This document shows, one piece after another, positions 59,650 to 64,000 of a DNA stretch of 64,000 nucleotides. The DNA is from Chryseobacterium shigense (lineage in GTDB: Bacteria; Bacteroidota; Bacteroidia; Flavobacteriales; Weeksellaceae), in contig NZ_JACHLC010000005.1 of NCBI RefSeq assembly GCF_014207845.1, forward strand, positions 171,711 to 235,710, given 5' to 3'. Under the pieces are notes generated by a model, which saw nothing but the letters and a program-made list of their open reading frames with translations, had not been told where the DNA came from and made no database searches. The position numbers were made by a program, and so were the translations under genes. Every line of letters begins with the position of its first letter. The stretch's first letter is position 1.

Positions 59650-61287
59650 ATGAAGAAAATATATTCTGGTGCATGTATTCTATGCGCTGTTTTCGGGCTG
59701 TCTGCCCAGGAAGTATTGTGGCAGAAAGATATCAAATCCTCAACGCAGGATTTTCTGAGCCAGGTTACTACAACTATTGATGGTCAATACTTAATAACGG
59801 GAAGCAGTATTCAATCAGAGAGCAATTCAGCTGCAACCCCTAACCTGAAATCTGCAACCTTGAAACAAAACAACGGCTACGATTTCCATTTAATCAAACT
59901 CAACCAACAGGGCGATGGGGTTTGGGAAAAATACCTTTCCGGGCAAAACCATGATTACCTTTCAGGCTCGGTATCAACCCAGGACGGTGGTTTTTTAATT
60001 TCCGGAACCAGCTATTCCGGTAAAGGCCTGGATAAAAAAGAAGATTCCAAAGGCGGATCAGATATCTGGCTGATTAGACTTAATGAATTTGGTGATGAAC
60101 TTTGGCAGAAAACTTTAGGATCAGCATCTGATGAAGAAGCAAGATCAGTAATTCAGACTACAGATTTAGGATTTTTTATTGCCGGGAATGTTCAGAACTC
60201 ATCTAAAGGCTATGGTTCCAAAGATGTTTTGATTGTAAAACTTGACAAAGACGGAAAAGAATTATCTCATTTAATTTTAGGAGGAAAAGGATTGGATGAG
60301 GTTGAAAAAATGATTCCAACTAAAGATGGGGGTGCTTTGTTAGGGATCTATTCGAGGAGTTCCGAGGTTCGGGTTTCAGGTTCCGGAGATCAAAAGTCTT
60401 CAGCTGCCTCGAATCCCGTATCGCGTACCGGGAAATCGACCGAAAACTATGGTGAAGGAGATTACTGGATTGTCAAATTAGACAAAACCGGGAAAGTAGA
60501 ATGGGAAAAAAACTATGGAGGTAAGGCAGATGATCATCTGAGAACATTGGCTTTGACTTCAAATGGATTTATCATAGGAGGAGAATCCAGGTCTGACAGG
60601 TCAGGAAACAAAACCATAGGAATTGAAGAAGGCACTGATTTATGGCTTATCTCACTTAACGAAAAAGGTGAAGAGCTTTGGCAGAAATCCTACAATTTTG
60701 GAAACAGGGATATCCTGATGGGAACTAGTGTTATTCAGAGTCAAGATCCAAGAACCAAGAATCAAGACCTTACTAAAGGAATCCTTTTGGGTGGTTATAC
60801 CCAGGCGGAAGGCCGTATAGAAACGGATGATGAAACCTTCTGGATGCTGTATTTGAATCAAAATGGAGAAGAGCAGTGGAGAAAACACGTAAAAGGAGAA
60901 TCCAGAAAAAGAGAAGAAAGACTTTCAGATATAAAACTGAACAGGGACGGCTCAATCATATTGGCTGGAACCAGTGCTGAAGAGCTCGGAAAAGAGAACT
61001 GGAAAATTATAAAGCTGGGAGATAAGCAGCTTGATCAGTTAATTGAAAAACAAGACATCAAGATTTATCCGAACCCTGTTTCAGATTATGCTTATGTAGA
61101 AATAGGCTTTGATTTTAAAGAAGCAGATATTGTGTTGTATGATATGGGAGGAAGACAATTCCAGAGTTTGAAAACTAAGAATAAAGTGACTAAGATTAAT
61201 ACCCAGAATTTAATTCAGGGGGCTTACCTGGTGGCCATAAAAACAGATACTAATAAAACAGCAAGTGCAAAATTGATTAAGAAGTAA
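59650..61287 (+). CDS. T9SS cargo with type A sorting domain and propeller-like repeats
   Basis: A 545-residue secreted protein. It has a signal peptide (MKKIYSGACILCAVFGLSAQ) and about six repeats of a W-x-K-x(n)-GG-x-D pattern (LWQKDIKSS, VWEKYLSGQNHDY, LWQKTLGSASDEEAR, VEWEKNYGGKADDH, LWQKSYNFGNRD, QWRKHVKGES), the layout of a beta-propeller. The last 75 residues are a type A T9SS sorting domain: IKIYPNPVSDYAYVEIG, VLYDMGGRQFQSL and IQGAYLVAIKTD. Three loops carry 7-bp-period DNA arrays in frame (residues 61-72, about 235-264, 364-374), each next to a propeller strand, making the loops long and low-complexity. It is 13 bases upstream of an Rhs-like gene and probably in one unit with it. 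Confidence 0.88.
   Translation: MKKIYSGACILCAVFGLSAQEVLWQKDIKSSTQDFLSQVTTTIDGQYLITGSSIQSESNSAATPNLKSATLKQNNGYDFHLIKLNQQGDGVWEKYLSGQNHDYLSGSVSTQDGGFLISGTSYSGKGLDKKEDSKGGSDIWLIRLNEFGDELWQKTLGSASDEEARSVIQTTDLGFFIAGNVQNSSKGYGSKDVLIVKLDKDGKELSHLILGGKGLDEVEKMIPTKDGGALLGIYSRSSEVRVSGSGDQKSSAASNPVSRTGKSTENYGEGDYWIVKLDKTGKVEWEKNYGGKADDHLRTLALTSNGFIIGGESRSDRSGNKTIGIEEGTDLWLISLNEKGEELWQKSYNFGNRDILMGTSVIQSQDPRTKNQDLTKGILLGGYTQAEGRIETDDETFWMLYLNQNGEEQWRKHVKGESRKREERLSDIKLNRDGSIILAGTSAEELGKENWKIIKLGDKQLDQLIEKQDIKIYPNPVSDYAYVEIGFDFKEADIVLYDMGGRQFQSLKTKNKVTKINTQNLIQGAYLVAIKTDTNKTASAKLIKK
59831..59866 (+). repeat. 7-bp-period array inside the T9SS cargo gene (1 of 3)
   Basis: CTGCAAC, CCCTAAC, CTGAAAT and CTGCAAC follow in register from 59831 to 59858, then CTTGAAAC. 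It encodes residues 61-72 in the loop after the first propeller strand. Confidence 0.7.
60351..60442 (+). repeat. 7-bp-period array inside the T9SS cargo gene (2 of 3)
   Basis: Two blocks in 7-base register: TTCGAGG, AGTTCCG, AGGTTCG, GGTTTCA, GGTTCCG, GAGATCA (60351-60392) and CTCGAAT, CCCGTAT, CGCGTAC, CGGGAAA (60408-60435). The blocks are roughly inverse in composition. GC is clearly higher than in the flanking coding sequence. It encodes a Ser/Arg/Gly-rich loop. Confidence 0.7.
60742..60769 (+). repeat. 7-bp-period array inside the T9SS cargo gene (3 of 3)
   Basis: Four consecutive heptamers differing only at the last two positions: CAAGATC, CAAGAAC, CAAGAAT, CAAGACC. It is the cleanest of the arrays. 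It encodes SQDPRTKNQDL at about residues 364-374. Confidence 0.8.
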
Positions 61288-61299
61288 ACACAAAAAACA

Positions 61300-64000
61300 A
61301 TGAGAAAAATATATAATACTAAAATTTCCTTAAGTGCCTTTTTTCTGGTTGCAGGTATTTTTATGCATGGGCAGGAAACGAGCAACTTAATGAATAATGG
61401 TGGTGGAAATACGGAATTGCCTAATATTAACCCTCCGTCTCCTGAATCCTTTTTCAGGACACAGTTCGGAAATTTAGAAGCCGGTGAATTCAGGGGAACA
61501 CCCAATATTGATATTCCCCTTCATGCCGTTTCTATAGGGAGCCTAACACATCCTGTTTCCCTCAGATATGCAAAAGCAGGGGTAAAAGTGAATGATGTAC
61601 CTAACTCTGTAGGAATGAACTGGATCTTGGAAGCAGGTGGAGTAATTACAAGAACTATTTATGATATTAAGGATGAATATGCTTCACAAAGATTATTGTT
61701 GAATCAGAATGACGTAAACTATTTATCTTCACCGGCAGGTGCTGAAACATTGGGTACTTATGCTCATGATATTGACGGGATGATCGATAATGAAACGGAT
61801 ATTTTTAATTTTTCAATGCCGGGATACAGCGGAAGCTTTTATCTTGATGCCAATTTCAATCCCGTTATCATTAGTCAGAATCATAATCTGAAGATAGAAA
61901 CCATAGGTAATTTTAAAGATACCTACCAGTTTATTATTACAACTTTCGACGGTACAAAGTATTTCTTCGGTGGATCAGGCTATACCGAAAGTACTTTTGT
62001 AAGACAAAATACATTAATGGGAGGGGTAACCGGTTTTTATCTTTCGAAAATTGAAGATAACAGAAATAATAAAATTGAATTTGAATATTTCCAGCAGAAT
62101 TCCAGACATGTAAATTTTGGAAAATCTGAAACAATGAGTGCCGGGGCCTATATCAATCAAACAGGAGCATCACTGAGTGCCTCCCCACCTTCATCAGCCA
62201 TAAGTTCCATCAATGTGACGTATTCAAAATATATCAGTAAAATTAAAACATCCGATGAACAAATCTCATTTACTTATCTCACAGACGCCAATGAGGTATT
62301 CCAGAAACTTGGAGATATCACCATTTCTAAAAACGGGGCAAACATCAGGAAATATGTTTTTGCTTATATTAATAATAATACAACGGTAAAAAATGAAAAA
62401 AGATTTTTCTTAGAATCGGTAAAAGAATATGCTGTTAAAGGGACTCAGGAAACATTAACAGGAAATAATTATACACTGACCTATGATGCTCCTTTAGAAA
62501 TGCCGGTACGTCTTGCCAATGCCATTGACTATTTGGGGTATTATAACGGAAAGTCTAATTCCTCCTCCCTGTTGCCCAATCTTAATTTATTCTATGGACT
62601 TCAAGAGAACAATGTGTTCAGTCAGCAACAAAACCAGAATTATCTTTATTATGCAGACAGGAGACCCAACTTTGAGTTTGCCAGAAAGGGTACCTTAACA
62701 TCAGTTACCTATCCTACAAAAGGGAAAACGGTTTTTGAGTATGAACCTGTTTTTGCCAAAACATCTAAATATGAAGAAACACTCTATTCTATAGGGAATA
62801 TTGGTATAATGGACTTTAGCCCGATTACTCCTATAAATTCTGTTACCGGAAATTTAAATTCATCAGCCGTTTACGCAGGCAGTTTGAGCATTCAGCTGAA
62901 TTTACATTCTGAAGAGACCGCGGTACAGCCTAACAAGGCAATGGCACAGTTTGATATTTTAGATGCATCCAATAATCAGGTATTGTATACTAGAGACGTT
63001 TTTCTTCCCAAAACAGAACAGAATTTAAGTTTTTCAACCAATTTCAATATAGAACCCAATAAGAACTATATTTTCAATTTTAAGATTAAAAATAATTACT
63101 GTAACCAATGTAGCGGAACCGCTATGATTAAGTACCAGTCCGGCCTGGAAAAAGTAGATGACGGCGGTGTAAGGTTAAAAAAACAGTATGACGTTGCAGA
63201 TAATACCAGTACCAATATCAAACGGTATTACTATGATACGTATTCGGACATTCATAATAATGAAAAACTGAATCCCCCATTTCAGCCTTATTTCTTCACC
63301 AAGCATTTTAACCAGATGGGTGACTTTGGAGGTACTCCAAGGCTCGATGTTGCCACAAAATTTGAATTAATCCTGCATTCAGAACCGCAGCCTCTGCCTT
63401 CATATATAGAAGATCCGGTTTACCCGAATGTGACTATCAGCCATGGCGGGGATAATTTTGAAAAAGGCGGCGAAGAGAAAACTTTTGATTCGGAAAACGG
63501 ATTTGAATATCGGGGAACTTCTACTTTTTGGGAGCCTACTTATAATGGCGCTTATTTATCTGACCCATCACTGATGACGGGATTAACTTCTACTGCCGCT
63601 CAATCTATGTCGAGGAACTTTACTGTCAGCAATATAAACGGGCACTTAATTTCGCATAAAACATTGGTTAACAAAAACAATACAGTATATCTTAAAAGCG
63701 ATAAAAGCAATATCTATTCTACTCCTTTAGAAAAAGTGATTTATAACCTTATAGGAGTACAACTGTATAATTATTTTTATGTTCCGCCCGGAGTTAACGA
63801 AAATACTTCCTTAGATAATATGTATATAGGACAACACGCTATTCCTACTTTTGCTTCTTTTCTTGACAGTACGGTTTCGAAAGAATACATGGAAGATGTT
63901 CCTGTAAATGTTACTGATGACAGCGGATATAAAAAAATGGTTACCACAACCCATTACAATTATGATAATGTAGAAAAACAGCTTTCAAAGACTACTGCTG
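61300..64000 (+). CDS. Rhs/SpvB-like large secreted protein, 3' end beyond window
   Basis: The frame from the ATG at 61300 stays open to the window end, at least 900 codons. It starts with a signal peptide (MRKIYNTKISLSAFFLVAGIF, ending about HGQ) and then shows the Bacteroidetes Rhs/SpvB N-terminal pattern: SPESFFRTQFGNLEAGEFRG, TPNIDIPLHAVSIG, LTHPVSLRYAKAGVKVNDV and SVGMNWILEAGGVITRT. YD-type strands recur later: FDGTKYFFGG, SKIEDNRNNKIEFEY, VTYPTKGKTVFEYEP and TTTHYNYDN. A CNQC pair lies near residue 604. In Bacteroidetes such proteins are often T9SS-linked and may end in toxin domains; the C-terminus and any immunity gene are outside the window. The upstream T9SS cargo ends 12 bases before it. 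Confidence 0.82.
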   Translation, partial: MRKIYNTKISLSAFFLVAGIFMHGQETSNLMNNGGGNTELPNINPPSPESFFRTQFGNLEAGEFRGTPNIDIPLHAVSIGSLTHPVSLRYAKAGVKVNDVPNSVGMNWILEAGGVITRTIYDIKDEYASQRLLLNQNDVNYLSSPAGAETLGTYAHDIDGMIDNETDIFNFSMPGYSGSFYLDANFNPVIISQNHNLKIETIGNFKDTYQFIITTFDGTKYFFGGSGYTESTFVRQNTLMGGVTGFYLSKIEDNRNNKIEFEYFQQNSRHVNFGKSETMSAGAYINQTGASLSASPPSSAISSINVTYSKYISKIKTSDEQISFTYLTDANEVFQKLGDITISKNGANIRKYVFAYINNNTTVKNEKRFFLESVKEYAVKGTQETLTGNNYTLTYDAPLEMPVRLANAIDYLGYYNGKSNSSSLLPNLNLFYGLQENNVFSQQQNQNYLYYADRRPNFEFARKGTLTSVTYPTKGKTVFEYEPVFAKTSKYEETLYSIGNIGIMDFSPITPINSVTGNLNSSAVYAGSLSIQLNLHSEETAVQPNKAMAQFDILDASNNQVLYTRDVFLPKTEQNLSFSTNFNIEPNKNYIFNFKIKNNYCNQCSGTAMIKYQSGLEKVDDGGVRLKKQYDVADNTSTNIKRYYYDTYSDIHNNEKLNPPFQPYFFTKHFNQMGDFGGTPRLDVATKFELILHSEPQPLPSYIEDPVYPNVTISHGGDNFEKGGEEKTFDSENGFEYRGTSTFWEPTYNGAYLSDPSLMTGLTSTAAQSMSRNFTVSNINGHLISHKTLVNKNNTVYLKSDKSNIYSTPLEKVIYNLIGVQLYNYFYVPPGVNENTSLDNMYIGQHAIPTFASFLDSTVSKEYMEDVPVNVTDDSGYKKMVTTTHYNYDNVEKQLSKTTA

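Follow-up and report, generated by a model that had tools for sequence, protein, structure and literature searches.

How can repeats with a unit of seven bases, a length that is not a multiple of three, come to lie in frame inside a protein-coding gene, and what do they do there? The question is raised by a gene near the end of a 64,000-nucleotide stretch of the Chryseobacterium shigense genome (4.15 Mb, 15 contigs), here called the window (G000:C5:171711-235710). A first-pass annotation had described three blocks of consecutive heptamers in the loops of one T9SS cargo gene, and they were found at the places it gave, in frame, within the open frame of that gene (Table 1). The best three lag-7 windows of the gene (28 comparisons each) fell at 60733 (21 matches), 60357 (17), and 59831 (16), and the lag-7 matches of blocks 1, 2, and 3 exceeded those of codon shuffles (p 0.002, 0.00005, and 0.0001) and of synonymous sequences (p 0.002, 0.0001, and 0.017, only moderate for block 3). 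Tandem Repeats Finder (minimum score 30) reported block 3 alone (60742-60767, period 7, 3.7 units) and nothing at blocks 1 and 2, both of which are more degenerate. When three consecutive units were searched in the 64-kb window with up to 3 mismatches, GGTTYCR matched only in block 2 (3 overlapping matches vs. 0.07 expected, a count reached by 0 of 100 shuffles) and YCAAGAN only in block 3 (3 matches vs. 0.60 expected, reached by 3 of 100 shuffles). The middle block is indeed GC-richer (0.554 vs. 0.472 in block 1, 0.429 in block 3, and 0.396 in the gene), and it is composed of two different parts rather than a single homogeneous array. A hairpin or palindromic element was considered as the nature of the blocks but was not supported, as their RNA fold z-scores (-1.09, 0.26, and -0.07) were no better than those of shuffles.

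Table 1. Coordinates of the propeller gene, its heptamer blocks and its downstream neighbour (window positions; lag-7, matches/comparisons)
Feature	Position	Strand	Description
Gene carrying the three blocks	59650..61287	+	ORF of 545 aa; predicted beta-propeller with T9SS type A sorting tail
Block 1 (loop 1, residues ~61-73)	59831..59869	+	CTGCAAC-type heptamers; lag-7 16/29
Block 2 (loop 2, residues ~235-265)	60352..60444	+	G-rich GGTTYCG, then C-rich CCCGTAT-like heptamers; lag-7 38/86
Block 3 (loop 3, residues ~364-374)	60739..60771	+	YCAAGAN heptamers, four units; lag-7 18/26
T9SS type A sorting domain	61063..61284	+	Residues 472-545; TIGR04183 / PF18962
Downstream gene	61300..64000	+	ORF; continues past window end and contig end

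The description of the product as T9SS cargo is borne out by the C-terminal sorting domain, which scores well above its cut-off (TIGR04183, 42.2 bits vs. 23). The AlphaFold2 model of the protein (40 sequences) is mostly beta, with a mean pLDDT of 73.5, and the PDB structures closest to it are those of the enzyme CylK, a beta-propeller (TM 0.58, normalised to the query); the protein is thus a predicted propeller. In the model the periodic blocks are located in predicted loops: confidence is low, among other places, over residues 56-75 and 238-261, where blocks 1 and 2 are situated, and block 3 is placed about a short turn predicted between strands at residues 366-372. With its sorting tail, propeller-like fold match, and an Rhs_assc_core gene downstream, the locus resembles T9SS cargo with SBBP-type beta-propellers beside Rhs loci, but membership in the SBBP family of LipL53 (NF047494) was rejected (39 bits vs. 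a curated cut-off of 400), and because this score is so far under the cut-off, no named family fits the protein. A profile search with the 900 aa of the downstream gene that lie within the window gave no family match. Position 64000 of the window, which is also the end of the contig, falls within this gene; the assembly probably broke off here at paralogous loci of the Rhs type. Next downstream of the C1 paralogue (L399) are genes for a YD/RHS-repeat protein and a DUF6443-Rhs_assc_core protein, and in all three loci inspected (the C1 paralogue and one copy each in two other genomes) an Rhs_assc_core gene came two or three ORFs after the propeller gene.

Heptamer periodicity in the source genome was scanned in 40 sampled stretches (800,000 bases, 88% coding by a simple ORF rule). 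The intergenic match rate at lag 7 was 0.317, the highest of lags 4-21 (others 0.299-0.310), while the coding rate (0.262) was similar to that of other lags not divisible by 3. Likewise, non-overlapping intergenic windows with at least 22 of 35 matches numbered 34 at lag 7, compared with 8, 5, 4, 19, 3, 7, 13, 4, 3, and 15 at lags 4, 5, 6, 8, 9, 10, 11, 12, 13, and 14 (lags 8, 11, and 14 thus showing some excess too). Coding windows numbered 9, compared with 2-8 for the other lags that are not multiples of 3. The signal that the first-pass annotation had proposed to look for genome-wide is therefore above chance, in intergenic rather than coding DNA. By reading, several families of intergenic tracts could be told apart (TCTTGRY, TCTGATA, CCCTAAT, GAACATA, TTACTGC, AATGAGT, and CCCGTAA). 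Perfect intergenic arrays of at least six units each are present for CCCTAAT (L070:2498) and GAACATA (L102:18346). Pattern scans of the genome gave 20 matches to three YCAAGAN units (up to 2 mismatches) vs. 7 in the control, and 8 vs. 1 for three GGTTYCR units; 18 distinct matched places were inspected, and the majority of those not in the propeller gene family lay between called ORFs.

The genome carries three near-full-length copies of the propeller gene, all open: that of the window (on C5) and two others, on C1 and C4, with 92% protein identity to it. The position of block 1 is occupied in C4 by other heptamers, of the GCAGTAA/GCAGAAG type; C4 is also without block 2 (57 bp shorter) but has 36 bp more in a fourth loop, and both C1 and C4 lack block 3 (15 bp shorter). 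Segment by segment, the parts outside the loops show the three copies to be related to about the same degree (0.85-0.98). C5 and C1 agree at 0.93 in loop 1 and 0.84 in loop 2, and either agrees with C4 there at 0.56-0.65, while in loop 3 it is C1 and C4 that agree (0.98), with C5 at about 0.6. Since different loops pair different copies and the flanks are about equal, loop state moves independently of the flanks. Comparison of these paralogues revealed no clean insertion with a target duplication; the codons neighbouring the loops differ too between filled and empty alleles.

The family is present in 139 of 148 genomes of the genus drawn from a larger group (E <= 1e-60), and all named relatives of the gene were Chryseobacterium in the best 80 of 523 loci. 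A first survey comprised 92 copies, of which two were dropped (same locus) and five set aside for a single stop, one of these in loop 1 (L126), leaving 85 intact copies in which loops 1, 2, and 3 were parsed in 77, 80, and 79 cases. Loop 1 of these copies holds at least four heptamer types (CTGCAAC, AGCCARC, GGAAGNT, and GCAGTAA), short unperiodic alleles, or a palindromic CCTTCGA...CTCAGG element; loop 2 measures 27 bp or 51-132 bp, and loop 3 30 bp or 45 bp. A similar CTGCAACC...ATCTGCAACC module occurs in loop 1 of the window's gene and in loop 2 of L114, L120, L132, and L154. With 120 more loci the survey rose to 204 copies, among whose coding stretches 162 were distinct (5 with stops; loops parsed in 140, 153, and 136), including two loci of Chryseobacterium sp. 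Bi04 (L273 and L306) whose 66-bp loop 3 is the 45-bp allele plus 21 bp, with extra YCAAGAN units.

With one sequence per 80% cluster, the lag-7 match rate was 0.400 in loop 1 (24 clusters), 0.434 in filled loop 2 (23 clusters), and 0.509 in long loop 3 (6 clusters), with a second peak at lag 14, vs. 0.259 in the remainder of the gene. The expectation that orthologues would share the period was thus upheld for filled loops; orthologues without it exist, but these carry short or empty alleles (lag-7 0.333 and 0.348 for short loop 2 and loop 3, and a short unperiodic kind in 10 of 106 typed alleles of loop 1). When a tree was built from 125 copies after removal of the loops, loop state changed on it at least 11 times in loop 2, at least 20 in loop 3, and at least 27 in loop 1 (type, 106 typed), counts that are rough because this is a quick tree of recombining paralogues and loop-1 types were assigned by simple rules.

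The palindromic CCTTCGA...CTCAGG element is itself dispersed (39 matches vs. 3 control in 7 genomes), with 9 matches inside propeller-family copies by coordinates; of five such matches that were read, three lie in loop 1 or a fourth loop and two at other in-frame places. The element was seen in loop 1 and a fourth loop at L043, L047, L116, and L309; in L118 it lies at residue 380, and in L137 at residue 491, within the sorting tail. It is translated as PFDSAQG, LREPQG, or PSTGSG, and a literature search for the peptide PFDSAQG found no paper.

The heptamers of the loops recur between genes across the genus. The 24-mer ACCCGCAACCTGNNATCTGCAACC, taken from loops, gave 170 matches with up to 3 mismatches in 65 of the 148 genomes, vs. 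1 for the reversed control, and three YCAAGAN units gave 479 (overlapping) matches in 50 genomes, vs. 25 in 16 for the control. Among the matches listed, 30 loci of the 24-mer (one per genome) were intergenic in 19 cases, in the propeller family in 9, and antisense in a TilS-like ORF in 2 (L213 and L222), while 29 YCAAGAN loci were intergenic in 21 cases, in the propeller family in 4, and in other ORFs in 4 (in the sense direction for L187 and L191; in the antisense direction for L181 and, at the start of an ORF that was probably called too long, for L194). The antisense positions in the TilS-like ORF and in L181 are taken as coincidence. In four genomes (L199, L209, L210, and L211) ACCCGCAACCTGNNATCTGCAACC stands just upstream of a gene (start ATGYTAATCAAAAGAAG) that looks alike in all four, so part of the intergenic copies are old and may have been retained. 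Exact k-mer sharing with sampled intergenic DNA was, for loops 1 and 2, above that of codon-shuffled loops but lower than the loops' sharing with coding DNA in equal quantity. In loop 3 the proportion of distinct 9-mers shared was below the shuffled mean, although its 9- to 11-mers were commoner in intergenic than in coding DNA. Such sharing is weak evidence and does not decide the matter. In a sample of the order, three YCAAGAN units were found in 13 of 196 genomes, including 7 of the 16 from the genus; outside it, 15 matches in 6 of 180 genomes, vs. 19 control matches, amount to no overall excess, and in other genera of the same family 3 of 13 genomes had matches and the control had none, so that the motif is perhaps above control in sister genera.

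In-frame heptamers also occur in protein genes unrelated to the propeller family. The 3-hydroxyacyl-CoA dehydrogenase of G079 (PF02737, PF00725; L187) has, after GKGFYDYS, a loop of 63 bp with four YCAAGAN units. This gene is matched in 147 of the 148 genomes, and among 30 loci fetched, the loop could be parsed in 28. It measures 48 bp and is free of heptamers in 26 of these; one of the others is that of G079 itself, and one (L360, in G125) has 84 bp of a different sequence. The 36-bp extra of the latter was rejected as a dispersed repeat, as it occurs only once in G125 (up to 3 mismatches). In carA of G147 (L191) a heptamer array runs into the gene end and CarA is 9 residues longer than in the source genome, where a like array comes after the stop codon (L006).

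The heptamer blocks are thus real, widespread in the genus, and unusual. The explanation we prefer, with a probability of roughly two in three, is that they are dispersed degenerate heptamer DNA recurrently captured by permissive loops and reshuffled among paralogues; the transfer from donor to loop is something we infer, because filled and empty alleles also differ beside the loop. Arrays would enter loops as copies of paralogous loops or of sequences at other genomic sites, through recombination or template switching; array length would then change by unit slippage, and selection would retain only changes totalling a multiple of 3, the result being diversified polar loops rather than an on/off switch. 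A bolder version, in which arrays are pasted frame-blind into loops of several proteins and have been made into a loop-diversification system for the Rhs-associated secreted propeller family, is offered only tentatively, as we consider it rather doubtful.

As 7 and 3 have no common factor, all three forward frames of a perfect heptamer array spell one and the same cycle of 7 residues, and either every frame contains a stop or no frame does, as was verified with 14 units on each strand; a stop-free array can therefore land in any frame. Stop-freedom is no absolute filter, since GCAGTAA, which has a stop in its perfect form, occurs in loops, where it is short and degenerate. As the first-pass annotation had proposed, changes of three units do lengthen a loop by 7 residues, in 21-bp steps that keep the frame: among single-gap differences between close pairs, which are not independent, 21 bp was the commonest size (25 of 63 in loop 2, 12 of 19 in loop 3). 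The examples of these 21-bp gaps that were inspected were read as four unrelated inserts; gaps of 33 bp came second in loop 2 (16 of 63), and those of their inserts that were inspected look alike.

Part of this would also follow if the arrays had grown in place, by polymerase slippage from short loop seeds, with the intergenic likeness reflecting a shared 7-bp slippage bias and no transfer. The 21-bp steps, together with one 7-bp difference described below, are slippage-like unit changes, and according to the accounts in PMC4679880 and PMC4692102, heptamers outnumber other longer tandem units in most of the genomes surveyed, and a polymerase footprint has been proposed for them. The mixed-unit 24-bp motif tells against it, recurring as it does between genes and in two different loops with its 170 matches against 1 in the control: slippage alone does not make an identical mixed-unit string at unrelated places, and we consider this explanation unlikely.

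The first-pass annotation had suggested instead that unit number could act as a phase switch, the gain or loss of one heptamer turning the exported protein off or on, which is mechanically possible. Broken copies were surveyed in 30 single-contig genomes (140 rows, read as 133 copies and one distant row). In G082, the loop-2 anchors of the copy L312 are 115 bp apart, vs. 122 bp in the six other copies compared (L310 and L327-L331), a difference of exactly one unit, and a stop is met at once, truncating the copy. Together with L311 and L313 this copy makes up the three of eight split or truncated copies that break at or in loop 2, a segment of about 6% of the protein. Against a switch, four of the eight (L307-L310) are one-base losses outside the heptamer tracts, the arrays are short and degenerate, all three copies of the source genome are open, and 125 of the 133 copies are in a single frame over nearly their full length (2 with one in-frame stop). 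The remaining broken copy, L314, has a frame change near residue 506 and is the one of the eight outside the alignment. A switch is not supported as the function of the blocks, and we regard it as very improbable. In G069 (L313 and L332) propeller homology stops at the start of loop 2 with an Rhs-type gene end nearby, an arrangement that looks as if recombination had taken place at loop 2.

A reading of the period as a side effect of polar, low-complexity peptides and of the codons chosen for them is scarcely credible and was rejected: the peptides are polar and repetitive, and some lag-7 signal persists in synonymous re-draws (means 0.319-0.344; block 3 of the window's gene taken alone is the weaker one on this test), but the values observed in the three loops of the family were reached by 0 of 1000 synonymous re-draws, as by 0 of 1000 codon shuffles, in any loop, and the same DNA motifs are found between genes.

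Heptanucleotide repeats are known in cyanobacteria as STRR sequences, and the units GGGAATC and GGGGATT occur in Xanthomonas and Nostoc. In the accounts given in PMC4692102 and PMC4679880, bacterial heptanucleotide repeats are 7-bp tandem units that are mainly intergenic, heterogeneous, and varying among relatives. TAACTGA repeats are listed for Beggiatoaceae, cyanobacteria, and five Bacteroidetes, Elizabethkingia anophelis among them, and both accounts have heptanucleotide repeats under-represented in coding regions, with an exception in one TAACTGA pair that lies within a PurC gene, close to its end (PMC4679880). The Chryseobacterium units are like this LSSR/STRR kind in being tandem, 7 bp long, dispersed, and mainly intergenic, the window's copies being a coding exception, but differ from the repeats in those accounts in lying in frame in the loops of one protein family and differing among paralogues. 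Rickettsia palindromic elements (RPE) are, as presented in PMC10969869, dispersed repeats of about 150 bp in frame in protein genes, with a conserved peptide. The heptamer tracts, too, lie in frame within unrelated protein genes, but, unlike RPE as characterized there, they measure about 20-100 bp, and folding of the window's own blocks does not exceed that of shuffles. With phase-variable simple sequence repeats (contingency loci) they share a unit that is not a multiple of 3, a predicted exported protein, and one truncation by unit loss, and differ from them in that the tracts are short and degenerate, with no long pure repeat, and frame-keeping changes are common. Intergenic heptamer repeats, also in Elizabethkingia, and in-frame repeats in Rickettsia are thus already known; a search by title and start of abstract, with subscription journals mostly outside its scope, turned up no recognisable paper on heptamer repeats in Chryseobacterium coding frames.

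The heptamer blocks vary from copy to copy and therefore likely diversify the surface of the predicted exported protein. Heptanucleotide repeats, which are reported to be more frequent than other longer tandem repeats in most of the bacterial genomes surveyed, have so far been treated as mainly intergenic, and this family shows, copy by copy, heptamer DNA in coding sequence, its encoded peptide, and its possible cost, where one unit is missing and the gene truncated. It offers a testable model for how non-coding repeats may supply new protein segments, with some 160 distinct copies as a natural test set for loop capture.
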